Source: Anaeromassilibacillus sp. An200
GTDB taxonomy: Bacteria > Bacillota > Clostridia > Oscillospirales > Acutalibacteraceae
Direction: 5' to 3'
Assembly: GCF_002160025.1 (NCBI RefSeq)
Contig: NZ_NFJU01000015.1
Coordinates: 17,740 to 81,739 of the forward strand
Length of the DNA stretch: 64,000 nucleotides
Shown here: one piece after another, positions 48,367 through 62,778 of the stretch
Position numbering within the stretch: position 1 is the first letter of the stretch
How the letters are laid out: every line of letters begins with the position of its first letter
Notes under the pieces: generated by a model
What the model saw: the letters and a program-made list of their open reading frames with translations, nothing else
Told to the model about the DNA's origin: nothing
Database searches by the model: none
Program-made: the position numbers and the translations under genes

Positions 48367-48375
48367 CATAGGATA
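48367..48375 (+). promoter_or_regulatory. Candidate mother-cell (SigE/SigK-type) -10 element before sigK
   Basis: CATAGGATA fits the SigK -10 form CATAnnnTA and is close to the SigE form. It lies 48 bases before the sigK start; a matching -35 is less clear (AAC or AAACAAG some 13-17 bases upstream). Confidence 0.4.
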
Positions 48376-48422: not shown

Positions 48423-48629
48423 ATGCTGACTGCCCTTTTGTCTTGCGCCATCTCGGGATTTTTGTTTTTCATTCTCCATGTCACAGGGACTGGCTCTTTT
48501 CCCCGCCCTCTTACACCAGCGGAAGAAAAAGATTGTCTGGCCCGCCTGCGTCTCGGAGATCCCTCCGCCCGATCGGAGCTGGTAGAACATAACCTTCGTC
48601 TTGTGGCACATATCATCAAGAACGGTTGA
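48423..48629 (+). CDS. sigK: sigK segment 1 of 3 (pro-sequence and start of region 2)
   Basis: This is the first part of the sporulation sigma factor SigK. The ATG at 48423 follows GCGGAGG. The first 28 residues are hydrophobic (MLTALLSCAISGFLFFILHV), like the membrane-bound pro-sequence of Bacillus pro-SigK. Then come FPRPLTPAEEKDCL and EHNLRLVAHIIK, a clear SigK match. In the present DNA the frame ends two residues later (NG, stop at 48627-48629), because element 1 starts at CAAGAA (48617-48622). Joined to base 54660 the frame continues as [15 protein letters not shown], as in clostridial SigK. Confidence 0.93.
   Translation: MLTALLSCAISGFLFFILHVTGTGSFPRPLTPAEEKDCLARLRLGDPSARSELVEHNLRLVAHIIKNG
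48617..48622. repeat. Left attachment core of element 1
   Basis: CAAGAA, shared with 54660-54665. Within it AA (48618-48619) is the likely crossover dinucleotide, by symmetry of the reconstructed circle site. Confidence 0.75.
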
Positions 48630-48642
48630 TGCGGAAGGAAAG

Positions 48643-48683
48643 AAATCCCGCAAGGCCAGCGGCGACGCGGCTTTGCGGGATTT
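48643..48683 (+). terminator. Hairpin at the left end of element 1
   Basis: Arms AAATCCCGCAA (48643-48653) and TTGCGGGATTT (48673-48683). It lies just after the in-frame stop of sigK segment 1 and would end the interrupted transcript. Confidence 0.65.
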
Positions 48684-48689
48684 ACTATG

Positions 48690-49056
48690 GGATAAAGCAA
48701 AAGGAAAAACTCTCTGGCGAGGCAACGGACAAGCCCGGTTTGGGGATTATAACAGACATGTGGTCATCTGTTGGGATGTAATGATACGAGGCGGCTTTTA
48801 AGAAAAGATATATATTACGCACTCAAAATTATTGCTTAGTAGAGTTTTCATATAAAACTAATCTCAAAATATTAGAGAGAAAAGAATAGGTCACTTATCG
48901 AAAAAATGCAATTGAGAAAAAGACCAATTTTAATTGAATCTAAAAATTGACTTTTTGGCATAAAAGCAGGAAATGAAATATACGGAATATCTATCGCAGA
49001 AAATAGGACACAGATAATCAGCAGTATAAAAATAAAACTACTCTGATTTTTCCATA
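48690..49056. other. Gene-free left part of element 1
   Basis: No gene is supported here. From about 48800 the DNA is very AT-rich. In the excised circle, codons from the edge to a stop at 48799-48801 would be read as an extension of the recombinase that starts at 53033. Confidence 0.5.
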
Positions 49057-50361
49057 TCACACCTCGCACCTTAAAATTGAATCCACCGCCCACAGCGGAA
49101 GATTCAGCAGCCAATCTTCTTTCTTATAGTCTGCCATGGATGTCCGAATCGATAGCTGAGGCTGGAACTTTTCCCGGTATACTTTCAAACTCTTGGCCTG
49201 GAGATTCACCTCAGCTTTGACTTCGACTGGAATCACATCTTTACCGTTGTCGATGACAAAATCTACTTCTGCGGTTCCGCGATCTGCAGTCCAATAGTAG
49301 ATATTTAGCCCTTTGATCGTTTCTAATTGCTGTAGGACATACTGCTCTGTCAGAGCGCCCTTAAACTCTTTGAACAATTCATTCCCGTCCAGCAGCACAT
49401 CCTGCCGGAGTCCAACCATACAAGACAAGAGGCCTACATCCAGCAAAAACAGCTTGAACGCTTTCAAATCCTCGTAGGCTTTTAGCGGCAAGCTGGGAGC
49501 AGATACTCGGTGGATCTTGTGAACCAAGCCGCAATCGGTCAGCCAGAGCATGGCCAGCTCATATTCCTTGGCACGGGCACCCTCTTTGATAAGGCCATAG
49601 ATAAACTTTCGATTTTCCTTGGCAAGCTGGGCCGGGATGCTGTTCCATAGCATCCGAATACGGGGTACTGTCTCATTAGGTGCGTGTTTGGAAAAGTCCT
49701 GCTCATAAGCGGCCAGAATGCGCTGTTGAATTTCCCGCACCTCATTGAAGTCATGATTGTCCACAAAGGCTTGGACAACCTCCGGCATACCGCCCACATA
49801 GTAGTACTGCTTCAGCAGATCGGAATAATCCTGCTTGAACATGGTAGCCATATCAAAATCGCCCTGGTTTAGCAGTTCCACATATCGGTCTTTTCCCATA
49901 GCCATGAGAAACTCGGAGAAAGAAAGCGGATAAAGATCAAGAAACTCTACTTTTCCAACTGGGAAAGAGGTCCCCTGATGCAGTGCCACACCCAAAAGGC
50001 TCCCGGCACAGATGATTTGATATTGAGGAGCGTCCTCATTGAAATATTTGAGGCTGGACAATGCAGTCGGTACTTCCTGAACCTCATCAAAAATCAGAAG
50101 GGTATTTGCCGGGTCGATTTTATGCCCTGCATAGAGCTCCAACCCTGTCACCAACCGCTCTACCGCAAGGCTTCCTTCAAATAAATTGCGCATCCGTTCG
50201 TTGTTGTCAAAGTTGATATAAACAACAGATTCATATTCAGCGGCTCCGAACGCCTTCATGAGCCAGGTTTTTCCCACCTGACGGGCGCCGCGGATAACCA
50301 GCGGCTTGCGATGCTTTTTAGCCTTCCATTTTTGAAGCCGCTCCATAACAGTACGATACAT
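49057..50361 (-). CDS. AAA ATPase with DUF4143
   Basis: This 434-aa protein has the ATPase domain in residues 1-200 (Walker A GARQVGKTWLMKAF, Walker B NTLLIFDEVQEVP, sensor IICAGSLLGVAL) and the DUF4143 domain in the C-terminal third, with the nuclease-like strand YYWTADRGTAEVDFVIDNG and VIPVEVKAE. Such proteins are common cargo in genomic islands; the DUF4143 part resembles PD-(D/E)XK nucleases. The ATG at 50361 follows AGGGGTGATGGA. It is the only minus-strand gene in element 1 and might act in defence or toxin-like roles; unproven. Confidence 0.92.
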   Translation of the reverse strand: MYRTVMERLQKWKAKKHRKPLVIRGARQVGKTWLMKAFGAAEYESVVYINFDNNERMRNLFEGSLAVERLVTGLELYAGHKIDPANTLLIFDEVQEVPTALSSLKYFNEDAPQYQIICAGSLLGVALHQGTSFPVGKVEFLDLYPLSFSEFLMAMGKDRYVELLNQGDFDMATMFKQDYSDLLKQYYYVGGMPEVVQAFVDNHDFNEVREIQQRILAAYEQDFSKHAPNETVPRIRMLWNSIPAQLAKENRKFIYGLIKEGARAKEYELAMLWLTDCGLVHKIHRVSAPSLPLKAYEDLKAFKLFLLDVGLLSCMVGLRQDVLLDGNELFKEFKGALTEQYVLQQLETIKGLNIYYWTADRGTAEVDFVIDNGKDVIPVEVKAEVNLQAKSLKVYREKFQPQLSIRTSMADYKKEDWLLNLPLWAVDSILRCEV

Positions 50362-50570
50362 TCCATCACCCCTCAGAAATTTTAACTGTATTATACCACA
50401 TATCAACAAAAAATCAAACAACTTTTCGGGACATAAACTCATTTTACAAAGCAACTAATAGGAAGTGGGGCGAATCAAGGTCTTTCAAGGATTGTGAACA
50501 GAGCAACTCCACTATATAGTTTATAGTGCCATTCAAGTACGCTCTCCCTTTTTACAGAAAGGAGATCGCA

Positions 50571-50735
50571 ATGAATCCACGGGAAAACAAGCGAACGAAA
50601 GAATTTGTGACATGGTCGGAGGACTCCTCGATTTTAATCCGGTATGTTCCCTGCCAGGCGGACCAGTTGCGTACTGCGATTCAACTGGCACTGAAAAGCG
50701 CATATATAGAGCAGCTGGAAAGAAAGGAGGGGTAA
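50571..50735 (+). CDS. Small protein preceding the recombinase
   Basis: This 54-aa product (MNPRENKRTKEFVTW start) has a good ribosome site, AGAAAGGAGATCGCA, and ends one base before the next gene. Small ORFs of this kind commonly come before serine recombinases in clostridial elements. A regulatory role, such as steering excision, is possible but not shown. Confidence 0.7.
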   Translation: MNPRENKRTKEFVTWSEDSSILIRYVPCQADQLRTAIQLALKSAYIEQLERKEG

Positions 50736-50736
50736 T

Positions 50737-52302
50737 ATGGAAAATCGGGTTTATTGCTTATATCGTGTATCCACGAAAAAGCAGACGGACTTCAAGGCGG
50801 AAAATCAGGCTGATATTCCTATGCAGAGAAAGGCTTGCCGGGAATTTGCCGGGCAAATGGGATGGGAAATCCTTTACGAAGGCCAGGAAGCTGGCGTATC
50901 CGGGTTCAAGGTGAGTGAAAAAGACCGGGATGTTCTGCAGATGATTAAAGAGTACGCCCTCCAAAGAAAATTTGATATTCTGCTTGTGTTCATGTTTGAC
51001 CGCATTGGCCGCAAAGCGGATGAAAGCCCCTTCGTTGTGGAGTGGTTCGTAAGGCATGGAATTCGTGTTTGGAGCGTCAAGGAGGGAGAACAGCGATTTG
51101 ACCACCACATCGATACCCTGCTCAACTATATCCGATTCTGGCAGGCTGACGGAGAAAGCCGAAAGACCTCTGTGCGCACCAAAGAGGGCCTGCGGCAATT
51201 GGTTTTGGACGGCGGCTATCGCAGCGGAGGCGTACCATACGGATATCGATTGGTAGCAACCGGGAGACTGAATAAGCGGAATAAAGAAATATCGGAACTG
51301 GCAATTGATTCGGATGAAGCGATGGTGGTACGGAAGATCTTTGATCTCTGCATCGTCCATGGCTATGGACGATGCCGGATCGCCACCGAGCTGAACCGGC
51401 AAGGTATCCGTAACCGCAAGGGAGAAAACTGGCACGAGGCCTCCATAGGCCACATTCTTCATAATCCTTGCTATACCGGGGTGCTCCGGAGTGGAGATGC
51501 CATATCACAAAGATTTGAACATCTGATGATTCTGACCCCGGAACTCTTTGAGCAGGCACAGGCGCTGCAAAAAGCACGGCAAAATGAGGCCGATGGGGAG
51601 CGTACAGTTCCTGTGAATGTAACAGGGAATTCTTTGTTGTCAGGAAATATTTATTGCGGACACTGTGGCGGAAGACTGGTTCTGACCTCAAACTGCAAAA
51701 GTTATGTGACCGCAGACGGAAACAAAGTAAAACACCGCCGTACCCGATATGTCTGCTATCAGAAAACGCGCCATCGCTGTGTGTGCGATGGACAGACAGG
51801 ATACACAGCGCACATTTTGGATGAAAAGGTGGAACATGTAATTTGCCGGCTTTTGGAACAGTTAGGCGCAGTTGAGGAAAGCTTTCTGCTTCAGGGGTAT
51901 CTGCTTTGTGAAGAAAAGCAGATACGGAGGAAAATACGGGATGCTGCTCACGAGGCGGAGAGAAAAAAGCAAGATTATCAGCTTTTGAAACAGGAACTGC
52001 AAAAATCGCTGCACGGTTCCAGTCCGTACCCAGCGGAAATATTGGCGGAAATGCTGTGCGAAGCCGAAAGAAATGCGGCATCAGCGGTCACTTATCTTAC
52101 ATCACTGCAAAGTCAACTGTCATTGCTGCGCAAAAAAGATATGGCACAACAGGATGAGAAGAAAATCTTTTGGGTAGACATCTACCGCGCCAGTCCTATA
52201 GAGGTGAAAAAGATGATTGTCTGCCATCTGATCCCTAAAATCCATGTCTATCGCGGCTATCGGTTGGAACTGGAAATCAGCGACATAGGCGTCGTACTGT
52301 AA
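50737..52302 (+). CDS. Large serine recombinase, first of element 1
   Basis: This 521-aa DNA recombinase has the resolvase domain (1-140) with catalytic Ser in CLYRVSTKKQ, the Arg pair in FMFDRIGRKADE, then the Recombinase domain (about 160-270, GGVPYGYRLVATGR and HNPCYTGVLRSGD) and a zinc ribbon (CGHCGGRLVL and a later Cys pair in HRCVCDGQ). A coiled-coil part follows. It is complete and not at the element edge, so it may be a partner of the second recombinase, like CcrA/CcrB pairs, or belong to an older nested insertion. Confidence 0.94.
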   Translation: MENRVYCLYRVSTKKQTDFKAENQADIPMQRKACREFAGQMGWEILYEGQEAGVSGFKVSEKDRDVLQMIKEYALQRKFDILLVFMFDRIGRKADESPFVVEWFVRHGIRVWSVKEGEQRFDHHIDTLLNYIRFWQADGESRKTSVRTKEGLRQLVLDGGYRSGGVPYGYRLVATGRLNKRNKEISELAIDSDEAMVVRKIFDLCIVHGYGRCRIATELNRQGIRNRKGENWHEASIGHILHNPCYTGVLRSGDAISQRFEHLMILTPELFEQAQALQKARQNEADGERTVPVNVTGNSLLSGNIYCGHCGGRLVLTSNCKSYVTADGNKVKHRRTRYVCYQKTRHRCVCDGQTGYTAHILDEKVEHVICRLLEQLGAVEESFLLQGYLLCEEKQIRRKIRDAAHEAERKKQDYQLLKQELQKSLHGSSPYPAEILAEMLCEAERNAASAVTYLTSLQSQLSLLRKKDMAQQDEKKIFWVDIYRASPIEVKKMIVCHLIPKIHVYRGYRLELEISDIGVVL

Positions 52303-52364
52303 GCAGGGGGGATTGCTTGCGCGGGAGAGCGCTCGAATGGCATGCGCTTACAAATAGAGCAAAC

Positions 52365-52409
52365 AAAAAAGTGGCGGAAGATCGACCAATGATCTTCCGC
52401 CACTTTTTT
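52365..52409 (+). terminator. Terminator after the first recombinase
   Basis: Perfect arms around AAAAAAGTGGCGGAAGATC and its complement, loop GACCAAT-like, followed by TTTTTTG. It would separate the recombinase from the next small gene. Confidence 0.85.
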
Positions 52410-52434
52410 GCTTATATGAGAAAGGAGAACTTAT

Positions 52435-52809
52435 ATGGAACAGAAATACGCTTGCTTACTATACCGAACGAAGACGACAGAACAGAAAGATCAAGCAGAG
52501 ATGGAACGCCAGAGGGGCGTTTGTCTGCAGTTTGCCCAGGAACAGGGCTGGCTTCCGATCAGAGAGTTCTGGTGTTCAGAAGAAGACGGGCGCCCGATAA
52601 ACGAGGACCCGCTTCTGGAATTACGTGTCGGTGCAGAGCAAGCCCAATTTCAAATTTTACTGGTTTCTGAGTTCGATCGTATCGGACGCGTCCCAGTGGA
52701 ATGCAGCGCTGCTGCGGCCTTTTTTGAGCGACATGGTGTTGAGGTATGGACTGTAACGGACGGATATATGGGAAAACTCGTCCGGCTGGAAGTGGAAACA
52801 ATGAAGTGA
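52435..52809 (+). CDS. Stand-alone resolvase-like domain lacking the catalytic serine
   Basis: The 124-aa product resembles only the N-terminal domain of a serine recombinase: CLLYRTKTTEQKDQAEMERQ, VSEFDRIGRVPVECSAAAAFFERHGVEVWTV. The catalytic position reads YRTKT instead of YRVST, so Ser is gone (Thr two places on). It ends without the DNA-binding parts. It has an AGAAAGGAG ribosome site and lies between two full recombinases. It could be a decayed recombinase or a dominant regulator that pairs with them through the shared domain. Confidence 0.75.
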   Translation: MEQKYACLLYRTKTTEQKDQAEMERQRGVCLQFAQEQGWLPIREFWCSEEDGRPINEDPLLELRVGAEQAQFQILLVSEFDRIGRVPVECSAAAAFFERHGVEVWTVTDGYMGKLVRLEVETMK

Positions 52810-52863
52810 CACTATCATGTTTCGGAGCATGGATTCATAGGCATAGGAATGAGGTGATGATCG

Positions 52864-53055
52864 TTGGAGAGCACGCAGAGAGAGGTAGTCAGTGTCCTGC
52901 TGGAGCATGTTCTTTCCCTTGGCCTTATATCACAATTCACCTATTCTAAGGCGGAGGATTTGGTACATTCTGTGATGGATTTTCCAGAGCTATTCCGGTA
53001 TCCTGTGTGCTTGACAGAGGAGGGATGTCAGCATGAATGTACTCAAGATCCGTAA
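52864..53055 (+). CDS. Small protein overlapping the second recombinase
   Basis: The 63-aa product starts at TTG (52864) behind GAGGTGATGATCG and overlaps the recombinase start by 23 bases. It is helical (REVVSVLLEHVLSLGLISQFTY). Its overlap suggests coupled translation and perhaps a role in controlling the recombinase, such as a directionality factor. No family is recognised. Confidence 0.6.
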   Translation: MESTQREVVSVLLEHVLSLGLISQFTYSKAEDLVHSVMDFPELFRYPVCLTEEGCQHECTQDP

Positions 53056-54700
53056 TGAGATGCGCAGCGGAAAAAGCATCTTTGATTTGCCCCTGCGGGT
53101 AACCTTTTACGCCAGAGTGTCCACAGACAAAGACGAGCAGTTGAACAGCCTGGAAAATCAAGTACAGTACTATACAGAGCTGATTCAGTCCAAGCCAAAC
53201 TGGACCTATATTCCGGGCTATATTGACGAGGGCATCAGCGGAACAAGCACCAGAAAGCGGGATAGTTTCCTTCGGATGATTTCCGACGCCAAGGCAGGGC
53301 GGTTCGACTTCATCATTACAAAGGAAATATCCCGCTTTTCCCGTTCCACACTGGACAGCATCCAGTATACCCAGGAACTGCTGGAGCACGATGTGGGGGT
53401 ACTGTTTCAGAACGACAATATTAACACCCTGGACAGTGACAGTGAGTTCCGCCTGGTGGTCATGGCCGGTGTAGCCCAGGATGAGGTGCGAAAGCTCTCG
53501 GAGCGGTTAAAATTCGGCTTTCGCCAGGCCATCAAAAACGGCCATGTGCTGGGCAATGACAAACTGTGGGGCTATGACAAAAAGGACTGCGTCCTTACTA
53601 TCAACGAGGCGGAAGCCAAGGTGGTGCGCCGGATCTTCCACCTCTACGCCAATGAGCAGATGGGCATCCGGCGCATTTCCCAGCAGCTCTATGATGAGGG
53701 CTTTACCAGCCGGAAGGGTAACGCCTTCAATGTGCTGACCATCCGACACATTTTGGAGAATCCCAAATACAAGGGCTGGTACTGCGCCAATAAGAGCCAG
53801 ACCGTGGACTACCGCAGCAAGCGGAAGATCTTTCTGGACGAGAGCGAGTGGGTGATGTACCCGGACCCATCCATCCCAGCCATTGTATCGGAGGAACTAT
53901 GGGACCGGGCCAATGCCCTCTACAAGCGGCGAAGCGCTCAGATGATGTCTCACCAGAGTGCCGCCGAGTTTCATAATCGCTACCCATACAGCGGCAAGAT
54001 CATTTGTGAAGAGCATGGTACCAGCTTTCACCGGCAGGTGCTGAAAAGTTCCAAAGGAGAGAAAGAGGTCTGGCAATGCCGGGTATACCGGAATCGGGGA
54101 CGGGCAGCCTGTTCCGCACCTCAAATGCGGACTTCTGAACTGGATCAAATCATGGCGCAGATCTTCGATCAACTGGCGCAGGATAAATCGGCAATCGTGG
54201 ATGCCGTGATGAAGGTCATTCAGGCCGTTCCCAATGAGCACGACTACCGCCAAGATGCCGGGCGGATAGAAGCGGAGTTATCTGCCATCTATGCAAAAAA
54301 GGACCGCCTGCTGGAGATGAGCATAGAAGGTGCCCTCTCCACGGCAGAGTTCAAACAGCGCAACGACGCCTTCAACCAACAGATCCACGAACTGGAGAGA
54401 CAGATCGAGGTTTTGAAGGCGGAGGAAGAAAAAAGCCAAATCTCTGTGGAGCAGCTGGGGAAGATCAAGGCCGCGCTGGAGGAAGAACTGTCCTTTCAAA
54501 ACGGCGTGAACTCAGCCTTGGTCGCCACCATACTGGATCATATTGTGGTCAAAAAGGGCAGTACCAAGGAAGAAGTACATTTAGACATTTACTTGAAATT
54601 CGGCGACCCCTATGGGGGCGTTTTTGACCGGGAAAATTCCTCCTTCTGCTTCACACGTCCAAGAAATATTATGCCAACAACAGCGATCAGGACGATTTGA
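53033..54700 (+). CDS. Large serine recombinase at the right edge of element 1 (SpoIVCA-like)
   Basis: This 555-aa recombinase has catalytic Ser in [13 protein letters not shown], the domain core [15 protein letters not shown] and [11 protein letters not shown], Recombinase domain with [19 protein letters not shown], zinc ribbon cysteines and a C-terminal coiled coil. It is the best candidate for cutting out element 1 during sporulation. The frame crosses the right attachment site: its last 13 residues come from sigK DNA. In the circle the same frame would read on through RTVDAEGKKSRK to the stop at 48799-48801, adding about 45 more residues than now. Expression control may lie in the small genes before it. 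Confidence 0.93.
54660..54665. repeat. Right attachment core of element 1
   Basis: CAAGAA, matching 48617-48622; sigK coding resumes here with AAG AAA TAT TAT. Confidence 0.75.
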
Positions 54701-54799
54701 TTTCGATCGGCACCATCGGTCTCATCAAAGCCGTCAATACGTTTGATCCCGACAAGAGCATCAAGCTTTCCTCCTATGCGGCACGATGCATTGAAAATG
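54660..54799 (+). CDS. sigK: sigK segment 2 of 3 (rest of region 2)
   Basis: This 140-base coding island between the two elements reads [46 protein letters not shown], the core-binding and -10-recognition part of SigK (region 2.1-2.4). It has no start codon of its own. In the present DNA the frame runs on past the left edge of element 2 into AILTKMCL and a stop at 54821-54823. It is useful only when joined on both sides. The upstream recombinase frame also covers its first 40 bases in another phase. Confidence 0.93.
54795..54799. repeat. Left attachment core of element 2
   Basis: AAATG; followed inside the element by CTATCCTCACA, the right arm of the inferred attP. Confidence 0.8.
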
Positions 54800-54858
54800 C
54801 TATCCTCACAAAAATGTGTCTGTGAACCATCCGGCCACATACCAATGATTGGATTTCT

Positions 54859-55497
54859 TCACTTTTCTTCGCCGGCTCCATCCAAAAGCTCCTGCAATTC
54901 GTTCACCAGACGGCAAAGGTGGAAGCCGTCGCACACAGCATGATGCACTTGTACTGCCAGAGGCAGCAGTATCCGGCCATGATCCTCATAGAAGCGTCCC
55001 ATGGTAAAAATAGGCGGGAGATAATCATAGCCATTTTGCAGATTCAGGTTGAAGCCTTCAAAGCTGGCCCAAGGGACCATCGATACCGGAAAGGTATTGA
55101 CAGGGGTATCGGGTCGGGCAATTATCCCCGAAGTATTGCCATACTCAGCCATATCCTTCTCCCAGGAAGCACAGAAATCCACATAGCTTGGAGTATAGGC
55201 TGTCCATAGATTGGAGAAAGTTTCCGTGTCCTTATGAAAAACGGTATAGCATGGATGAACCACGTCATAAAATCCCGGTTCCCCGCTTTCATCCAGTGCC
55301 ATGCGAAACTCCTGATGGCGGTTTACTACAGTGGACAAGTAAAACAGCATGGAAGGATACAGCTTTTGGCCATTTTTCCGGATCTGGGTGATGTCCAGCT
55401 TAAACACCGCGCTGTAGGTACAGGGGACCTGCGTAAAATAATGCTCGAAATATTCCTTTCGCGGCCAGGTTTCCCAGTCAATTCTGGTAAAAATCAT
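54859..55497 (-). CDS. Type A chloramphenicol O-acetyltransferase (catP-like)
   Basis: This 212-aa enzyme would acetylate chloramphenicol with acetyl-CoA. It has the start FTRIDWETWPRKEYFEHY, the substrate-side PCTYSAVFKLDITQI, NRHQEFRMAL, FEGFNLNLQNGYDYLPPIFTMG cut into smaller conserved parts, and the active-site HHAVCDGFHLCRLVNELQ with the catalytic His near residue 186. All key residues seen are those of active CatA enzymes, closest in style to clostridial CatP/CatQ. It lies at the left end of element 2 and would be lost from the mother-cell chromosome on excision. Resistance is inferred. Confidence 0.92.
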   Translation of the reverse strand: MIFTRIDWETWPRKEYFEHYFTQVPCTYSAVFKLDITQIRKNGQKLYPSMLFYLSTVVNRHQEFRMALDESGEPGFYDVVHPCYTVFHKDTETFSNLWTAYTPSYVDFCASWEKDMAEYGNTSGIIARPDTPVNTFPVSMVPWASFEGFNLNLQNGYDYLPPIFTMGRFYEDHGRILLPLAVQVHHAVCDGFHLCRLVNELQELLDGAGEEK

Positions 55498-55502
55498 CGC
55501 TT

Positions 55503-56840
55503 TTATTCTTCCTCTCCCAGTCGTCGGTACGTTTCGCGCAGCAGCTTGAGATAGCGGCGTGCGGTATCCGTTATCGAAAACGGTCTTTGACCGATCAGAT
55601 AGGTTTCCATTATATCATGGAACCGCTCATACAGATAGGGGGGAATTGCTTTTTTTCCATAAACAGCTCCAAGCACACTTCCCACGGAAGCCGCTGTACA
55701 GTCGCAGTCAAGGCCCATCGCAACCGTCTGAGAAATACCGCGCACCGGATCGTTTCTTCCAAGCGCCAGTCCAAAAACGATCAGACACAAATTATTGTTG
55801 GTATGCACAGCATGCATTCCGGCAAAGCGCTCATCCACAAGACGGCGTGCCTCATAGCAATCCTCTACCTCTTCGCAATGGGAAAGCGCCCACTCAATAT
55901 CTTGATGCAGCAAACTCTCCGCGGGGATTTCCGTCAGTGCGATCCGCATCGCATCCAGCGGATCCTCCACCGCGAAAGCAGCGCTCTGCGCCGCGGCCAG
56001 AAGCATTTCTCCGTATACTCCGTTGCGCCGGTGACTCAGTACACCATCCCGCCACGCCGTCTCCGCAGCCCGCTCAGGCGCTCCCGCCGCCGCCCAGCCA
56101 AAACCATCGGAACGGATAGCGGCCCCAATCCACTGCCGGTAAGGGTTCCTATACTCAGCAGCCTTCCGTGCGGACATGCCTTCGTGCAGGTTCTTCAAAG
56201 TGACTTCTTCCGCCGTACAGGCAAACGGCAGATATTTCATCCAGGCACGTCCCACGTCCTCTGTGGTAAAATCCAGACCGTACTCCTCCAGAATCAGCAG
56301 GGCCAGCTGAGTATACACCAAATCATCATCCACAGGAGCAGTCTCCATCTCATGCTTCTGATATGCATGCCGGTATGTTCCGTACGTATTCCTGACTTCC
56401 GGCGACCGCACCTGCTCCCAGTAATCCACAGGCGGAAACTGTTTCCCGGTATAGTCCGCCCATGCGCGCATTCCTTCGACGGTTTCTCCCTCTACCGGTG
56501 CGCCAAGCAGACAGCCTGCCGCGCGGGCAATCAGAGCCCCCTCGAGCTTATCAAGCAAAACGTCCTCCGACGGCAGTTTTTTCCAGAGACGGCGCGGTCC
56601 CGGTGTGCGCAGAGCCCGGATATGCTCCAGATCGTCCGGTTCTTTCTCTGCCAGCGTCGGATCGTTGGGAATCGCCTGCAGATCCTGCACAACACGCCGG
56701 ATATCCTCTATCAATTCCTGTATCCTTTCGGCGGCCTCTTTGGGCGCTCCCTGCTCGCATTTGAGCCGTGCGTATTCGCACACCTCCAGCTTTAAAGTCT
56801 CCAGTTCAGAAAAATCAGGATATTGTATCCATGCACTCAT
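55503..56840 (-). CDS. ADP-ribosylglycohydrolase-family protein
   Basis: This 445-aa enzyme may remove ADP-ribose or a similar N-glycoside. The catalytic domain (about 110-440) has GALIARAAGCLLGAPVEG, the metal-site VDDDLVYTQLALLIL, and the second metal motif GLDCDCTAASVGSVLGA. The first 100 residues form a helical extension. The ATG at 56840 follows AAGGGGAAAAGAAA. The gene is six bases upstream of catP and shares its direction, so both may be co-expressed; it diverges from the AraC regulator, a typical arrangement for sugar- or nucleoside-catabolic units. Confidence 0.9.
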   Translation of the reverse strand: MSAWIQYPDFSELETLKLEVCEYARLKCEQGAPKEAAERIQELIEDIRRVVQDLQAIPNDPTLAEKEPDDLEHIRALRTPGPRRLWKKLPSEDVLLDKLEGALIARAAGCLLGAPVEGETVEGMRAWADYTGKQFPPVDYWEQVRSPEVRNTYGTYRHAYQKHEMETAPVDDDLVYTQLALLILEEYGLDFTTEDVGRAWMKYLPFACTAEEVTLKNLHEGMSARKAAEYRNPYRQWIGAAIRSDGFGWAAAGAPERAAETAWRDGVLSHRRNGVYGEMLLAAAQSAAFAVEDPLDAMRIALTEIPAESLLHQDIEWALSHCEEVEDCYEARRLVDERFAGMHAVHTNNNLCLIVFGLALGRNDPVRGISQTVAMGLDCDCTAASVGSVLGAVYGKKAIPPYLYERFHDIMETYLIGQRPFSITDTARRYLKLLRETYRRLGEEE

Positions 56841-56919
56841 TTTCTTTTCCCCTTTCTCCAGGCTGGCACAGGACATCCCCTGCGTCCTGTTTTTGCTGCA
56901 TTAACCAAAAAAAATTGGC

Positions 56920-56948
56920 TTGCATTTTTTCTTTCTTTTCTTTACAAT
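56920..56948 (+). promoter_or_regulatory. Promoter of the AraC-type gene
   Basis: TTGCAT (56920-56925), 17 bases, TACAAT (56943-56948). Confidence 0.7.
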
Positions 56949-56992
56949 AAAATGAAAAGTGCAAAAAGTCTACCCACTTTTAGGTGAAAAGT

Positions 56993-57856
56993 ATGCAGTT
57001 TCAATCAACTTCCTTTTTCCATCCTCTGCAAGTTATTTTTGAACCAATCGTATTCCCTCCTGATTTTCCCTTTGTCCTTTGGCCCCGGGATCATCCCGGA
57101 GAGATGAGGGAAAAAGCAACCTATCTGCACTACCATCATGAATTGGAAGTGGGCTGGTGTGTGGGAGGAACAGGGGTCTTTTTTGTGGAGGATAAAGTAA
57201 TTCCCTACCGCGCCCCCTGTGCATCCGTTATCTATGGCGGACAAATCCACATTGCGCAGAGCAGTCCAAACGAACACAGTGAATGGTTCTTTGTCAATGT
57301 GGATGAGCGTGCGCTCGGTTTGAAGGATTTTCCCAGCCATACAGCGGCTCCCATTGTTTCAGAGGAGGATCCATGCGGCCGGGAGATCACCCTGCTTACA
57401 TCCATGCTGATCGATGAATTGCGAAGCGGCACACAGAACAATGGCCGCTGCGCAGCAGGGCTGCTGCAGGCTGTTCTGTGTAAGCACTCCCGTTTGTCCG
57501 GCGGCCTTTCTGATACATCCTCCTGGCGCATCGCGGAGATCGCTCCTGCTGTTTCCTACATCGCCAGCCATTACGCAGAACCCTTCAACGCTGAGTTCCT
57601 TGCCCGTCTGTGCGGTTTCAGCGAGGCAACGCTGAGACGCAAATTCCGGCAGGCGGTAGGCTGTGCCCCGCTGGAATATCTGCACCGCGTTCGCGTGGAA
57701 GCCGCGTCCGCGATGCTCCGCGCCGGAAACAAAACCGTTCTGGAAATCAGTGAACAGGTCGGATACTCCTCCCCTTCCAGCTTCAACCGTGAATTTCGCC
57801 GTCTCGCAGGCACAAGTCCCCGTGAGGTACGCCGTTCTCTCTGCCTCAAGGAATGA
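56993..57856 (+). CDS. AraC-family transcriptional regulator
   Basis: This 287-aa regulator has a cupin-like sensing half (HYHHELEVGWCVGGTG and YRAPCASVIYGGQIH) and a C-terminal pair of helix-turn-helix motifs (FLARLCGFSEATLRRKFRQ and VLEISEQVGYSSPSSFNREF, then GTSPREVRR). The ATG at 56993 follows AGGTGAAAAGT. It diverges from the ADP-ribosylglycohydrolase-catP pair and is likely to control it in answer to a small sugar-like ligand; this is an inference from position. Confidence 0.9.
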   Translation: MQFQSTSFFHPLQVIFEPIVFPPDFPFVLWPRDHPGEMREKATYLHYHHELEVGWCVGGTGVFFVEDKVIPYRAPCASVIYGGQIHIAQSSPNEHSEWFFVNVDERALGLKDFPSHTAAPIVSEEDPCGREITLLTSMLIDELRSGTQNNGRCAAGLLQAVLCKHSRLSGGLSDTSSWRIAEIAPAVSYIASHYAEPFNAEFLARLCGFSEATLRRKFRQAVGCAPLEYLHRVRVEAASAMLRAGNKTVLEISEQVGYSSPSSFNREFRRLAGTSPREVRRSLCLKE

Positions 57857-58002
57857 GCCGCGGAGAAAGCAAAAAAGTCCGTTTGGAAGGAAGAAAGCGA
57901 GGCGTTAAGAAAACGGGCGGAAGTGACGCCTTTGCCTGGTGGATTTTTTTGCAGCAGACTGCTATACTGACAGGCAGACAATCAAAGCAGGAGGAAATCA
58001 CC

Positions 58003-58452
58003 ATGAGTTTGGGAAGCAGTTTATACCACGCCCGGAAAAAAAGCGGTCTTTCTCAGGAAAACGTAGCGGAAAAACTGGGGGTCAGCCGCCAGACCATTTC
58101 CAAATGGGAAACCGATGAAACGCTGCCGGACATTCGCCAATCCAAAGGCCTTGCCATGCTGTATCACATGACACTCGACGAACTGATTGAATACAATTTT
58201 GATGAACAGCAGGCTCAGCAGATGATTGACAGTGTCAGCGAAGAAGCACAGGCACAAATCGACTGGAACAAAGTTTGGAGCAAAAAATACCCGGTACTTG
58301 CTTCCTATCATGAAAAAGTCCGCATCAACGATTACGCTCCCACTCTGCGGGAAATGCTGACACAGCTGCGAGTCGATTACGGCTACAACGAAACCGATGC
58401 GCTGCTGGTGCTCAAGGATATCCTGGCCCGTGTCTGGAAAGGCCAGATGTAA
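58003..58452 (+). CDS. XRE-family helix-turn-helix regulator
   Basis: This 149-aa protein has the N-terminal HTH (residues 5-60: SLYHARKKSGLSQENVAEKL, GVSRQTISKWETDETLPD) and a C-terminal part with no known fold. GCAGGAGGAAATCACC precedes the ATG at 58003. A TATACT box near 57963-57968 may be its -10. It may regulate element functions such as recombination timing, or the cargo; not known. Confidence 0.9.
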   Translation: MSLGSSLYHARKKSGLSQENVAEKLGVSRQTISKWETDETLPDIRQSKGLAMLYHMTLDELIEYNFDEQQAQQMIDSVSEEAQAQIDWNKVWSKKYPVLASYHEKVRINDYAPTLREMLTQLRVDYGYNETDALLVLKDILARVWKGQM

Positions 58453-58521
58453 GCAAAACATAAAAACGCAGCAAATGTGGGAGAGAATCCGCCGGACGGA
58501 GAAAGAAAGGGGACGCCAAAG

Positions 58522-58914
58522 ATGACGGAAGTTGTAGCCGCACTGATTTGGGACAAAGACAAATTCATGATCTGCCAACGCCCGGCCCATAAAGCAAGAG
58601 GGCTTCTGTGGGAGTTTGTTGGGGGAAAAGTGGAACCCGATGAAACAAAGCAGCAGGCCCTTATGCGGGAATGCCGCGAGGAATTAGCGATTACGGTGGA
58701 TGTGGGAGAGATATTTATGGATGTAACACATGAATATCCGGATATCACCGTTCATCTTACCCTATTTCATGCTGCCATCCGTGAGGGTATCCCACAAAAG
58801 CTGGAACACTGCGATCTTCGCTGGATTACTGTGGATGAAATTCCCCAGTATGATTTTTGTCCGGCAGACACGGTGATTTTGGAGCGGCTCCGGACAATCG
58901 GGAGCCATTCATAA
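58522..58914 (+). CDS. NUDIX hydrolase (MutT-like)
   Basis: This 130-aa enzyme cleaves nucleoside-diphosphate compounds, possibly 8-oxo-dGTP. The NUDIX box is complete: GGKVEPDETKQQALMRECREEL, read here in parts as GGKVEPDET and MRECREELAI. The start EVVAALIWDKDKFMICQRP matches MutT-type proteins. AAAGGGGACG precedes the ATG. It follows the XRE gene by 69 bases and ends before a strong terminator. Confidence 0.93.
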   Translation: MTEVVAALIWDKDKFMICQRPAHKARGLLWEFVGGKVEPDETKQQALMRECREELAITVDVGEIFMDVTHEYPDITVHLTLFHAAIREGIPQKLEHCDLRWITVDEIPQYDFCPADTVILERLRTIGSHS

Positions 58915-58930
58915 AATTCCAAACAAGAAA

Positions 58931-58972
58931 ACAAGGCTGGCCAACGGTTCGCGTTGACCAGCCTTGTTTTTT
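58931..58972. terminator. Bidirectional terminator in element 2
   Basis: ACAAGGCTGG.CAACG and its complement form a long hairpin with TTTTTT to the right. It separates the NUDIX gene from a converging small gene. Confidence 0.85.
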
Positions 58973-58986
58973 ACACATGCAAGGAT

Positions 58987-59220
58987 TTACAGCAGCTTTT
59001 GGAGCGCCCCCTTATACCTTTTCCGCCCTTCCATCTTCTTTTCTGCATCAATCACCTTTTGCAGCAGTTCCTTTTTCTGCCTGATCGGACAGTGCAGCTT
59101 GTCGATGGCATCGAGCACAAAAGCGGCATGAACCTCCGCGACACGTTCGGATAGTTCTCGCTTTCCCTCGTCCGTCTCTGGAAAATAGACTTTCACTGCA
59201 ACAGCCGCGCCGCTTCTCAT
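58987..59220 (-). CDS. Small helical protein, uncharacterised
   Basis: The 77-aa product begins MRSGAAVAVKVYFPETDEG and is largely helical after residue 15, with a basic end. GGGGGGAACAGA precedes the ATG. It diverges from the recombinase that starts at 59359; the 138-base space between would hold both promoters. A role in controlling recombination cannot be excluded. Confidence 0.65.
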   Translation of the reverse strand: MRSGAAVAVKVYFPETDEGKRELSERVAEVHAAFVLDAIDKLHCPIRQKKELLQKVIDAEKKMEGRKRYKGALQKLL

Positions 59221-59358
59221 TCTGTTCCCCCCATTCTTCTTTTCCTATCCCTATGGAGAAAAGCTCGCCGGTATGACTTACCTTATAAACACAAAGAGCG
59301 TGTTACCGGAAAGCACGGGGCCATACAATGATAACAGCACAAGAGAGGAGGGGCTGCC

Positions 59359-61047
59359 ATGTCTAAGAATCAAGACGCAGTCGCTATCTATTCCCGTAAA
59401 TCCCGTTTTACCGGAAAAGGGGAAAGTATTGGGAACCAGGTGGAGCTGTGCCGCACTTACATTCGCACCGCTTTTGGAGAATCATATGCCGGAAAAAGCA
59501 TCGTATTTGAGGACGAAGGGTTTTCCGGAGGAAATCTCAACCGCCCTGGCTTCCAGCAAATGATGAAAGCCGCCCGGGAACACCAGTTCAAAGCTGTGGT
59601 TGTCTATCGCCTGGATCGGATCAGCCGCAGCATCAGTGATTTTTCCTCCCTTATCGAAGAACTGGGACGGCTGGAGATCGATTTTATTTCCATCCGGGAA
59701 AGCTTTGACACCTCCAGTCCCATGGGGCGCGCCATGATGTACATCGCCTCTGTGTTCAGCCAGCTGGAACGCGAAACCATCGCGGAGCGCATCCGCGACA
59801 ACATGCACGAGCTGGCCAAAACCGGACGCTGGCTGGGCGGTACAACGCCTACCGGTTATACCTCCGAGGCAGTCAACAGCGTCACCATAAACGGCAAAAG
59901 CAGACGAACCTGCCGGCTCAGACTGATCCCCGAAGAGGCCCGCCTGATCCGCAGCATTTATGACCTGTATCTACAGACGGATTCCCTCACCCAAACAGAG
60001 AGCGAGCTGCTGCGCCAACAGATAAAAACGAAAACCGGACGAAGCTTCACCCGGTTTTCCATCAAAGGCATTTTGCAGAATCCCGTCTATTTGATTGCTG
60101 ATCCGGACGCCTATCAATACTTTGTGCAGAGAGAAGCGGATCTTTCCTGCGGCCCCGAAGAGTTTGACGGTACACGGGGGATTCTGGCCTATCATCGTAC
60201 CGATCAGGAAAAAGGACGGGCTACCGTATTTCTTCCCATCTGCCAGTGGATCGTGGCAGTGGGAGAGCACCCGGGGATCATCCCGGCCAAAACCTGGATT
60301 CGCGTGCAGGAGTCCCTGGAACGCAACAAATCCAAGGCCTATCGCAGACCGCGCGGCAATGAAGCCCTGTTGACCGGCCTACTCTGGTGCTGCTGCGGCA
60401 GCCGGATGTATCCCAAAATATCAAAACGGACTGCGCAGGATGGAAAACTGGTTTACCGCTATGTCTGCAAAACAAAGGAACACAGCAGACGCAGCTTGTG
60501 CCGCCAGCGAAACATTCCCGGAAATTCCCTTGATGCCGCCGTTATAGAGCAAGTCAAGCTTCTATCCACAGACAGCCGCGCGTTTCTGACCCTGCTCGAA
60601 AAAAACAAGCGATTCCGTCCTGCAAATCAGGAAGAAACCGGGGAAAAGCTTGCGGAGCTTCGGCATAAGCAAGCCGAGACAGAGCAAAAAATTCATACTT
60701 TGGTGGATTCCCTTGCTGAGTTCAGCGACAGCGCCGCTGCCGTCCATGTGAAAAAACATATGGAGGCTCTGCATGCACAGATGTCGGATCTCCAGTCCCG
60801 CATCACCGCACTGGAAGAGCTTTCATCCGGTCATGAGCTTCCCGAGTCCGAATTGGAGCGCATGTGCCGTCTATTGCGTGTATTTCGGAACAATATGGAT
60901 GAGATGACATTGGAGCAAAAACGATCCACACTCCGCACCGTGGTACGCAAGGTGGTCTGGGACGGACAAACCGCCCATGTAATGCTGTTCGGCACAGAAG
61001 ACACCGGCCATCACATCAAAACGCTTCTGTGTGAGGATAGCAAATGA
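59359..61047 (+). CDS. Large serine recombinase at the right edge of element 2
   Basis: This 562-aa recombinase has catalytic Ser in AIYSRKSRFTGKGES, DEGFSGGNLNRPGF, the Arg pair in YRLDRISRSISDF, the E-helix start FSQLERETIAERIRDNM, Recombinase domain with GGTTPTGYTSE, a zinc ribbon (CCCGSRMYPK and a later Cys) and a coiled-coil tail. AGAGGAGG precedes the ATG. Its TGA (61045-61047) overlaps the AAATG core and is completed by sigK DNA. In the circle the frame would read [18 protein letters not shown] and stop at 54846-54848, adding 16 residues. It probably excises element 2. Confidence 0.94.
   Translation: MSKNQDAVAIYSRKSRFTGKGESIGNQVELCRTYIRTAFGESYAGKSIVFEDEGFSGGNLNRPGFQQMMKAAREHQFKAVVVYRLDRISRSISDFSSLIEELGRLEIDFISIRESFDTSSPMGRAMMYIASVFSQLERETIAERIRDNMHELAKTGRWLGGTTPTGYTSEAVNSVTINGKSRRTCRLRLIPEEARLIRSIYDLYLQTDSLTQTESELLRQQIKTKTGRSFTRFSIKGILQNPVYLIADPDAYQYFVQREADLSCGPEEFDGTRGILAYHRTDQEKGRATVFLPICQWIVAVGEHPGIIPAKTWIRVQESLERNKSKAYRRPRGNEALLTGLLWCCCGSRMYPKISKRTAQDGKLVYRYVCKTKEHSRRSLCRQRNIPGNSLDAAVIEQVKLLSTDSRAFLTLLEKNKRFRPANQEETGEKLAELRHKQAETEQKIHTLVDSLAEFSDSAAAVHVKKHMEALHAQMSDLQSRITALEELSSGHELPESELERMCRLLRVFRNNMDEMTLEQKRSTLRTVVRKVVWDGQTAHVMLFGTEDTGHHIKTLLCEDSK
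61042..61046. repeat. Right attachment core of element 2
   Basis: AAATG, preceded in the element by TGTGAGGATAGC, the left arm of the inferred attP. Confidence 0.8.
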
Positions 61048-61360
61048 AATCCTGATGTTTTTCCGCGCCGGAAAAAAGAGTGCACAGGACATTTCGATGA
61101 ACGAAGCCATTGAATCCGACAAGGACGGCAATGCCCTTACACTTTCCGACGTTCTGGCCTCCGAGGACAACATCTGCGACAATCTGGAAGCAAAAATCCG
61201 CGCGGAGCACCTGCATCGTTTTCTGGCGCGCTCTCTCACGCCCCGTGAACGCCAAGTGGTGGAGCTCCGCTACGGCCTGTGCAACCGTCCTCCTCTGACG
61301 CAGAGAGAAGTCGCCGACCGTCTTGCCATCTCCCGCTCCTATGTATCGCGACGCCGCTAA
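61042..61360 (+). CDS. sigK: sigK segment 3 of 3 (regions 3-4, truncated end)
   Basis: Joined to segment 2 this reads ENEILMFFRAGKKSAQDIS, DKDGNALTLSDVLASEDN, then region 4: SLTPRERQVVELRYGL, LTQREVADRLAISRSYVSR. SigK proteins normally go on with IEKRAL and a tail of 10-30 residues; here RR and a stop follow (61358-61360), in the middle of the last recognition helix. A shifted frame reads P-L-M-stop, like the end of a worn IEKRALM. So the end was hit by a small deletion or by a third insertion. A GTG at 61031 could start this piece alone, but a stand-alone role is unlikely. Confidence 0.9.
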
Positions 61361-61370
61361 TGTAAACGAA

Positions 61371-61406
61371 GCCCGGAAAACCTGATACAGACAGGTTTTC
61401 CGGGCT
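61371..61406 (+). terminator. Terminator after sigK segment 3
   Basis: GCCCGGAAAACCTG (61371-61384) and its perfect complement (61393-61406) form a strong stem; only two Ts follow directly. Confidence 0.8.
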
Positions 61407-61421
61407 TCGCGCACAGTTTCT

Positions 61422-61994
61422 CTATACAATATCCGGTTCACACATTCTGCGCCAAAAGAACTTCCTTTCACGCATAGTTTTAGGGTCAACCTCTCTTAGC
61501 TTTTTCAAAATTGGTTGATACAGTTCCTCATGCTCAAAAAGACTGAATGTTTCGTCAATCTCTAACTGCCTTTTTACTTCTTCCCGAAGCTGAGGATAGA
61601 AAGACATCCACAAGCCAAGACAATCAACGAAATGCCGGATGCTGTTATTCATTGAAAGAGGTATCTCTTTAATCTCGCCCCAGAGGTGTTTTTCACTTTC
61701 ATCTATTTGTATTTGAAAAACCGCCCCGTTCTTCACATCCAATGCAATCAGTCCCATAGCATCCATTGATGCAATGTACAAAAAAGTGTTTTGTAGATAT
61801 CTGTGCTTTTTGATATAGGGGACTTCAAAAAATGTGAGTGGTGCGTTTGGCGTAATTTCACAGCTTGCATGGAGCGGAAGTCCAACCTCTGTTAAAAACT
61901 GAAATGTCTCTGCCGGAAGATTAAAAGGCTCTAATGTTTCCTTCGAAAACGGAATCAAAGATGCTTTGTATTCCTGTGATATTTCTATGTTCAT
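61422..61994 (-). CDS. SUKH-4-like immunity protein
   Basis: This 190-aa protein fits the SUKH-4 group of immunity proteins that block contact-dependent or polymorphic toxins: LPAETFQFLTEVGLPLHASC near residue 30, a middle strand GLIALDVKNGAVFQI, NNSIRHFVDCL, and the closing helix with FFWRRMCEPDI. The ATG at 61994 follows GAGGTGCGAT. The DNA is AT-richer than around. No toxin gene is next to it, so it is an orphan here or its partner lies elsewhere. Confidence 0.7.
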   Translation of the reverse strand: MNIEISQEYKASLIPFSKETLEPFNLPAETFQFLTEVGLPLHASCEITPNAPLTFFEVPYIKKHRYLQNTFLYIASMDAMGLIALDVKNGAVFQIQIDESEKHLWGEIKEIPLSMNNSIRHFVDCLGLWMSFYPQLREEVKRQLEIDETFSLFEHEELYQPILKKLREVDPKTMRERKFFWRRMCEPDIV

Positions 61995-62233
61995 ATCGCA
62001 CCTCAAAGAAAGCCAAATTAAGCGGTTAATTTATACGTTGAAGTATAGCATATCTTTTGGCTGAAAACAATCCTGTTCTATGTCTGTTCCACCTATCCAG
62101 CGCAGGTATTACAATGATGTGTAACAAAAACTCCGGGCATATAAAAAGGCCGTCATCTCAGCTGCACAGGCAAAGAGATGGCGGCCAGTCATGCAATCAG
62201 ATTTGAGAATTTTACATTCCTGAGGCGCATTCA
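61995..62233. other. Intergenic region with a terminator
   Basis: No gene is seen in 61995-62147. At 62148-62186 lies the hairpin described separately. Confidence 0.5.
62148..62186 (-). terminator. Terminator of the sulfatase gene
   Basis: GGCCGTCATCTC and GAGATGGCGGCC (one mismatch) pair; on the minus strand TTTTTATAT follows. It ends transcripts coming from the sulfatase fragment. Confidence 0.7.
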
Positions 62234-62450
62234 TCAGTCAAATGCAATTCCGGGACCGTAAGGAGCCAGCGCCGTCATAATATATGGGTTCACAATGACA
62301 TCGCTGTTTTCGCGGGCAAATTTCCACATTTTCCGGCAGAAATCCCGAACCACAGGCTGAAGCTCCGGACGGTTGATCAAATTCACTGTCTCGTTGGGAT
62401 CGGCCTGCAAATCATACAGCTCATCATAATCGAACGCATTAAACACACAA
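62234..62450 (-). pseudogene. Sulfatase C-terminal fragment, cut by an insertion
   Basis: Minus-strand codons read VFNAFDYDELYDLQADPNE, TVNLINRPELQPVVRDF and a tail ending PYGPGIAFD, the C-terminal end of arylsulfatase-type proteins. The catalytic N-terminal part with CxPxR is missing. Likeness to sulfatases ends at the codon for V in CVFNAF (about 62448); upstream residues RMMISAC are not family-like. The lost part should lie beyond the mobile element to the right. Confidence 0.8.
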
Positions 62451-62495
62451 GCACTAATCATCATCCGCGGGCAAAAGGTGCTCAAGGTAGACAAA

Positions 62496-62756
62496 ATGGA
62501 CTACTCTAAACACCCTGAATCTAAGAAGCTTCGATCCTGTAAGGCTTCCGCGTACATTCCCAAATGGCGCCAACTGGAACAGGAACAACCAGCGGCGCCT
62601 GTCGCTCCTCCATCACCGCCTGCTGCACCCAAAAAACCGGTAAAGAAAAAGCCGAAAGCGCCAAAATCACCGGTCGAACCCCAACCACCGGCAAATGATA
62701 CAGCATCAACCCCAGAAGGTGTTATCGCAATAGGTAAAGACTCGATTCTATCTTAA
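62496..62756 (+). CDS. Small Pro/Lys-rich protein of a mobile element
   Basis: This 86-aa product starts MDYSKHPESKKLRSCKASAY and has a PPSPPAAPKKPVKKKPKAPK-type linker. A GTG at 62478 is another possible start. It sits 22 bases before the S1-like gene and the right side of the sulfatase break. I do not recognise the family; it is likely the first gene of an integrated element. Confidence 0.6.
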   Translation: MDYSKHPESKKLRSCKASAYIPKWRQLEQEQPAAPVAPPSPPAAPKKPVKKKPKAPKSPVEPQPPANDTASTPEGVIAIGKDSILS

Positions 62757-62778
62757 ATTCATAATTCAGGAGGTTTTT

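Follow-up and report, generated by a model that had tools for sequence, protein, structure and literature searches.

sigK of Anaeromassilibacillus sp. An200, the gene for the sporulation sigma factor sigma-K, is split into four pieces. Three of them lie in the window analysed here, a 64,000-nucleotide stretch that covers positions 17740-81739 of contig C56 and ends where the contig ends; the genome measures 3.72 Mb in 150 contigs. Between the pieces lie two complete elements and, very likely, a third. Every element has a large serine recombinase (LSR) of its own at the right end, and sigma-K could be made only once all of them had been excised, which would probably happen in the mother cell. 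We put the probability of this reading at roughly 0.8. An earlier sequence-only reading of the window had described two independent elements; both do carry recombinases, but the count was too low, as the third split is very likely due to a third element. The gene carries three interruptions if the two ends at the last split are, as is very likely, those of a single element.

A sigK gene in four pieces

The sigK pieces, the elements and the short repeats at the joints (cores of the left and right attachment sites, attL and attR) are arranged as follows.

48367..48375, forward strand: CATAGGATA, a -10-like block of mother-cell (sigma-E/K) type, preceded by AC (spacing 17) and located 48 bp upstream of the start of sigK; putative promoter, seen by eye
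48423..48622, forward strand: sigK piece 1, codons 1-66 plus 2 bases, with a hydrophobic, pro-sequence-like N-terminus
48617..48622, forward strand: attL core of element 1, CAAGAA, at site 1 (HIIK/KYY)
48623..54659, forward strand: element 1 (E1), 6043 bp from core to core
54660..54665, forward strand: attR core of element 1, CAAGAA, direct repeat of its attL core
54660..54799, forward strand: sigK piece 2, codons 66-111
54795..54799, forward strand: attL core of element 2, AAATG, at site 2 (CIEN/EIL)
54800..61041, forward strand: element 2 (E2), 6247 bp from core to core
61042..61046, forward strand: attR core of element 2, AAATG, direct repeat of its attL core
61042..61350, forward strand: sigK piece 3, ending ...SRSYVSR
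61340..61350, forward strand: attL core of element 3, TATGTATCGCG, 11 bp, at site 3 (SYVSR/IEKK)
61351..64000, forward strand: very likely the left arm of element 3 (E3), from the match of core and arm; cut by the contig end
G000:C78:23428-23418 (contig C78 of the same genome), reverse strand: second copy of the element 3 core, the same 11 bp, before sigK piece 4

The sequence-only reading had located SigK-like coding at 48423-48622, at 54660-54799 and from 61042 to 61360, with direct repeats CAAGAA and AAATG at the joints. The repeats are present and the boundaries hold except for the last: piece 3 ends at 61350, and the final codons (RR*) are already part of the following element. The joined frame of 216 codons therefore does read through but stops without the real C-terminus. 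The tail is judged to be missing because all four congeners run on past SRSYVSR, continuing as SRSYVSR-IEK(K/R)AL..RREFER beyond the end of piece 3; these are G001 (Candidatus Caccousia avicola), G002 (Ca. C. avistercoris), G003 (labelled uncultured Anaeromassilibacillus) and G004 (labelled uncultured Oscillospiraceae). The window and the first 18.5 kb of its contig gave only chance matches to the tail. A search of the strain's own genome with a congener's tail and downstream flank located it on contig C78, where a 534-aa LSR (R3) is followed by TATGTATCGCG, the rest of sigK (piece 4, a 27-residue C-terminal tail running from 23428 downwards) and an enolase-like gene. Beyond this tail, 2 kb of DNA are 86% like the G001 sequence. 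Joined so that each core is counted only once, the four pieces form a single open frame of 240 codons.

By its profile scores the joined gene is sigK, as had been proposed. The joined protein, searched against SigK models, reaches 283.8 bits with NF004471 (cut-off 252; residues 2-231 of 240), ahead of the SigE models, and scores 238.8 with the SigE model, whose cut-off is 339. Pieces 1 to 3, once joined, match unsplit relatives across joints 1 and 2, in keeping with the fit claimed there from the letters alone, and joint 2 is also covered by the congeners. The whole genome gave 16 places at E<=1e-3, none of them an intact sigK; leaving the pieces aside, the top-scoring one is the SigE gene (NF006158, 358.9 bits, cut-off 339). 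A SpoIIGA-like gene adjoins it (145 bits, short of the cut-off of 209.55), and a SigG gene is present (NF006071, 428.5 bits, cut-off 372). Upstream of sigK, AC-N17-CATAGGATA is found by eye in the window's genome and in G004, and G003 has nearly the same arrangement, with CATAGGATG at spacing 18. We take CATANNNT(A) to be the mother-cell -10 type.

The gene might instead be dead, broken by prophage-like passengers in a strain that sporulates without sigma-K or not at all. Excision is not seen here, and a joined SigK query against 120 family genomes (23 of them searched twice; all figures from it hold among the matches listed) left the sigK body without a clear place in 19, a sign that some family members have lost sigK or that it was poorly recovered from them. 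Nine of the 19 were searched once only; also of the 19, G072 shows a sigK piece at the edge of a contig, and in G118 a tail stands next to R3. A dead sigK is nevertheless unlikely: all four pieces are in frame, codons 66-239 show nonsynonymous divergence (dN) of 0.014 and synonymous divergence (dS) of 0.777 against G001, the recombinases and cores are intact, SigE, SigG and SpoIIGA-like genes are present, and the site-1 split is common to all four congeners.

Three recombinases and their attachment sites

The recombinase genes are located as follows.

53033..54700, forward strand: R1, LSR of element 1 (Pfam), with homologs at site 1 in G003, G085 and G173
59359..61047, forward strand: R2, LSR of element 2 (Pfam), with homologs at the same site in 17/17 strong matches
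L023:9458-11062, on contig C78, reverse strand: R3, LSR of 534 aa, in the right arm of element 3

All three recombinases match the resolvase (PF00239), recombinase (PF07508) and zinc-ribbon (PF13408) domains above cut-off, and their mutual identity is 20-24%. Each lies at its element's right end, reads toward the next sigK piece and stops either at the joint or no more than about 30 bp from it. The R2 stop codon is formed by the core plus the following sigK base, and the final codons and stop of R1 come from out-of-frame sigK sequence, as they do in G085 and G173 (the G003 protein extends further), so that excision would alter the ends of both proteins.

The cores, of 6, 5 and 11 bp, are all in direct orientation. 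When the ends of an element are joined as a circle, the two 22-base arms flanking the core form an inverted repeat with 13 (E1), 16 (E2) and 15 (E3) of 22 positions matching; arms paired across different elements match at 7-9 of 22. Random window pairs reach 13, 16 and 15 in 79, 3 and 7 of 20000 draws, and after shuffling of the arms the same scores are attained in 624, 0 and 3 of 20000. Each element's ends fit only their own partner. The inverted-repeat match also ties the left arm in the window to the right arm on C78, and the two arms very likely make up one third element.

If site 3 had no element and the tail of sigK had instead been relocated by a chromosome break or rearrangement, tail and body would also lie on different contigs. 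Such an event is highly unlikely in view of the shared 11-bp core, the arm match (15 of 22, reached by 7 of 20000 random pairs), the recombinase beside the tail and the DNA beyond it, which is as in G001 (86%, 2 kb); relatives also show the same layout on single contigs. R3 matches came from 15 genomes including the window's, and in 12 of the 13 others inspected (from 14, leaving out G037) R3 stands shortly before a sigK-like tail. Because the sigK body and R3 share a contig in seven cases (G029, G032, G158, G218, G210, G390 and Marasmitruncus L075), the site-3 layout is seen there without a contig gap.

Least probable of all is an assembly or binning artefact that put several strains' pieces into one bin. 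The genome does consist of 150 contigs with a contamination estimate of 1.02%, but pieces 1-3 and two elements stand on a single contig, no competing intact copy was found, and the tail matches the sigK tail and downstream DNA of G001.

Two further observations concern site 3 and R3 elsewhere. In G390, a one-contig genome (C1 1101713-1190423), the sigK body and R3 with the tail lie ~88 kb apart, a spacing at which a much larger element seems to occupy the site. Three IMG/VR sequences (L173, L174 and L175) each hold four R3-like stretches, one 71-76% and three about 30% like R3.

The three sites in relatives and the contents of the elements

Across the family, each LSR type mostly keeps to its own sigK site. 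An R2 query against 398 family genomes gave 25 places in 24 genomes. Outside the window's genome, R2 stands directly before the sigK C piece in 17/17 strong places (>450 bits), of which 14 were fetched, G035 was read, and G100 and G282 were taken by coordinates. Seven weak places (<=425 bits) were set aside; three of their genomes (G122, G340 and G155) have an uninterrupted sigK. R2 was found in none of the four congeners. The right arm of element 2 (TGTGAGGATAGC before the core) is identical in G131 and G286, which belong to another genus and whose R2 is 62-63% identical.

R1 matches came from 23 genomes including the window's, and five of the 22 others were inspected: G003, G085, G173, G119 and G210. 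R1 adjoins the site-1 joint in the first three. In all four congeners the gene is interrupted at site 1 and runs through sites 2 and 3, and the first piece was found in two of them. The G002 contig begins with DNA 81% like the end of R1, before the joint; that of G004 begins at the joint, and the right arm in G001 looks different. Between the window's genome and G003, R1 has dN 0.07 and dS 0.93. In G085, two contigs (the end of L168 and the start of L139) overlap by exactly 99 bp beginning at the site-1 joint, an assembly fork of the kind expected where piece 2 has two alternative left neighbours; this would fit a rejoined sigK in the sample, but a second strain would look alike.

In the 120-genome set, sigK is uninterrupted at all three sites in 81 genomes. 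It is broken at site 1 in G001 and G085 and at site 2 in 12 genomes, five of which show one piece only (G017, G021, G099, G120 and G097). Four genomes (G029, G032, G112 and G114) end at site 3, the tail being seen in G029 and G032 only. G035 is broken at sites 2 and 3, and the window's genome at sites 1, 2 and 3. Among the best 80 of 115 named records matching SigK, a break at site 1 is seen in four contigs of Caccousia type, one at site 3 in L046 and in L075 (Marasmitruncus massiliensis), and breaks at both sites 2 and 3 in L047. The remaining 73 are unbroken at the three sites, although L081, at a contig edge, begins within the gene. L047 was taken as the G035 genome, the sigma-gene coordinates agreeing.

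Two relatives show stacking of a lesser degree. In G035, R2 precedes the C piece, the gene breaks at site 3, and R3 and then the tail are found on another contig. G173 has piece 1, R1 and piece 2, followed by a break at site 2; the C piece was not located, and the gene is very likely split at sites 1 and 2. No other genome with three splits was seen among the relatives examined. We give even odds to a broader reading, in which sigK of this clostridial family would be a three-slot landing pad. Three unrelated lineages of recombinase elements would each have become specialised for one conserved motif of the gene and would occupy one, two or all of the slots; with every slot occupied, the gene would act as a three-input DNA lock, to be opened at each slot before the late spore genes could be read.

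The other features of the elements are listed below.

49057..50454, reverse strand: AAA_14 / DUF4143 ATPase, element 1 cargo (Pfam)
50737..52302, forward strand: R1b, second LSR in element 1 (PF00239 and PF07508; PF13408 below cut-off)
52435..52809, forward strand: short resolvase-domain open reading frame (ORF) in element 1, likely an LSR remnant (PF00239 only)
54859..55497, reverse strand: CAT-family acetyltransferase, element 2 cargo just inside the left end (PF00302; a family assignment only)
55503..56876, reverse strand: ADP-ribosylglycohydrolase family protein, element 2 (PF03747)
56984..57856, forward strand: AraC-type regulator, element 2 (PF12833)
57853..58452, forward strand: HTH_3 regulator, element 2 (PF01381)
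58477..58914, forward strand: NUDIX hydrolase, element 2 (PF14815)
61370-61410: terminator-like inverted repeat, seen by eye, just inside the left arm of element 3
61422..62006, reverse strand: SUKH-4 family immunity-type protein, element 3 cargo (PF14435)
62779..63999, forward strand: element 3 cargo, S1-domain protein whose reading frame runs off the contig end (PF00575)

The presence of R1b, which looks intact, and a resolvase remnant alongside R1 hints at older insertions within element 1. The right arm of element 3 on C78 (L023) holds R3, a YqaJ-domain gene and a RecD2-type helicase, then sigK piece 4; the YqaJ-domain gene is a likeness to the Bacillus subtilis skin element, which has yqaJ. 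No capsid, portal or terminase gene was found when the larger ORFs from elements 1 and 2 were put to Pfam, with no PHROGs scan. A Terrisporobacter phage integrase 37% like R2 was considered and dropped, as no sigK-like DNA follows its stop by eye; a literature search gave no report on it. In the IMG/VR sequence L177 (4460 bases), a relative of R2 (62%) precedes what is likely a sigK C piece (42% over 53 residues), and a relative of R3 (84%) lies ~1.3 kb off on the opposite strand; the sequence may be a composite or rearranged element.

Predicted excision of the elements, and known systems

In the four-piece reading, growing cells would obtain only fragments from sigK. In the mother cell, each recombinase, together with a directionality factor, would join its two directly repeated cores and free its element, and full sigma-K would be possible only after all three excisions. 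Mother-cell excision is what the arrangement suggests to us, and since it would be limited to this doomed cell, the forespore and spore would keep the elements. The conserved motifs of sigK would likely offer three distinct places for safe insertion, of which one, two or all three can be occupied. Site 3, behind SRSYVSR, presumably lies within the DNA-recognition helix of region 4.2, and for that reason the product of only two excisions would probably be inactive.

Several points weigh against this reading. The two halves of element 3 sit on different contigs, C56 and C78, with a gap and no overlap between the contig ends. Contig C56 passes joints 1 and 2 unbroken. The inverted repeat of element 1 is the weakest of the three and modest. 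No directionality factor was identified for R1, R2 or R3, and the exact circle-joint (attP) sequences of the three elements gave 0 matches each in the viral collection. CATANNNT occurs before R2 (-37) and R3 (-173) in the window's genome, not before R1, and its position is not kept in relatives, where start codons were partly guessed from match ends; motifs like those of sigma-E promoters are present ahead of some recombinases and not conserved. The site pattern also has exceptions: R1 is not at sigK in G119 and G210 (two of the five other genomes inspected; 45-49% identity), R1 was found in one of four congeners (G003, and not G001, G002 or G004 at the search threshold), and R3 in G147 is not at sigK. 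G134 and G126 contain a further complete-looking sigK with a different tail, so that their R3 contigs may be strays; the idea that they hold split and rejoined forms side by side was rejected, as the tail sequences differ. The constraint on sigK may predate elements 2 and 3. With regard to identity, NF004471 is not exclusive, as the genome's SigE also passes it (259.7), and the joined protein stays under the cut-off of the TIGR02846 equivalog model (279.1 against 298.65). Of five intact relatives, two pass TIGR02846 (300.2 and 302.1) and three fail (287.8-290.4), so the model does not discriminate here and was dropped as the deciding one.

The sequence-only reading had also seen an AND gate in two separate excisions. 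Such a gate follows logically if all three elements must leave, and the layout would entail it, but selection may not have acted on it; elements that merely accumulate at a safe site, with no benefit to regulation, would explain the pattern equally well. A selected multi-lock control, in which the elements are kept since three excisions delay or sharpen sigma-K activity, is a tentative proposal that we consider doubtful. In its favour, removal of the single C. difficile skin element makes sigma-K active early and alters the spore surface, according to PMC5025042; all four congeners retain the split at site 1, and R1 is constrained relative to G003 (dN 0.07, dS 0.93). Set against this, elements 2 and 3 were found in none of the four congeners and R1 in one (R1-end-like DNA also precedes the joint in G002), most of the family sample is uninterrupted (81/120), and independent site-specific elements would stack anyway.

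If the four-piece reading holds, the classic one-element sigK switch becomes a multi-element one, and related bacteria provide natural zero-, one-, two- and three-lock versions for comparison. An old question would thereby become directly testable, namely whether sigK elements are kept as timers of sigma-K or are parasites for which a gene needed only in a doomed cell is a harmless address. The system would also supply three unrelated recombinases, each with its matching attachment sites, which are likely to be orthogonal.

In B. subtilis, C. difficile, C. tetani and others, sigK is interrupted by a single element (PMC5025042, PMC5553647 and PMC4430133; PMC10745906 and PMC13141910 are listed on the same subject). 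According to PMC5025042, the B. subtilis skin (SpoIVCA) is a prophage-like interruption of sigK excised in the mother cell; it is a single insertion whose place and orientation differ from those of the C. difficile element, skinCd. The same paper places the LSR gene CD1231 of skinCd immediately upstream of the 3' part of sigK, an arrangement shared by all three recombinases here. However, skinCd is one element with the directionality factor CD1234, whereas An200 has three LSRs 20-24% alike, and, compared with C. difficile, its sigK has a hydrophobic N-terminus. Other sporulation genes are likewise interrupted, spsM by SPbeta and yabG of C. botulinum by yin, and in the sources consulted SPbeta, yin and gin each represent one element per gene. 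The gin element of Bacillus cereus gerE uses serine recombinases, and its attL and attR consist of direct and inverted repeats; it has three LSRs in one element, whereas here three elements lie in one gene (PMC5595907 for gin).

The double interruption had been put forward as new. Among the matches listed from the open-access literature searched, none was seen to describe two or more elements within sigK or within any other gene of sporulation, but stacking as such has precedents in cyanobacterial genes, and it recurs in G035 and very likely in G173. The heterocyst elements (in nifD, nifH, hupL and others) number several per gene in 10/87 interrupted genes, with up to four in Rivularia nifD, as given in PMC4874684. 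They act in another differentiated cell and on other genes; here the target is a sigma factor, with three LSR types at three sites. What appears to be new in An200 is a skin-type interruption stacked threefold, by three recombinase lineages that each recur at their own site in one gene.

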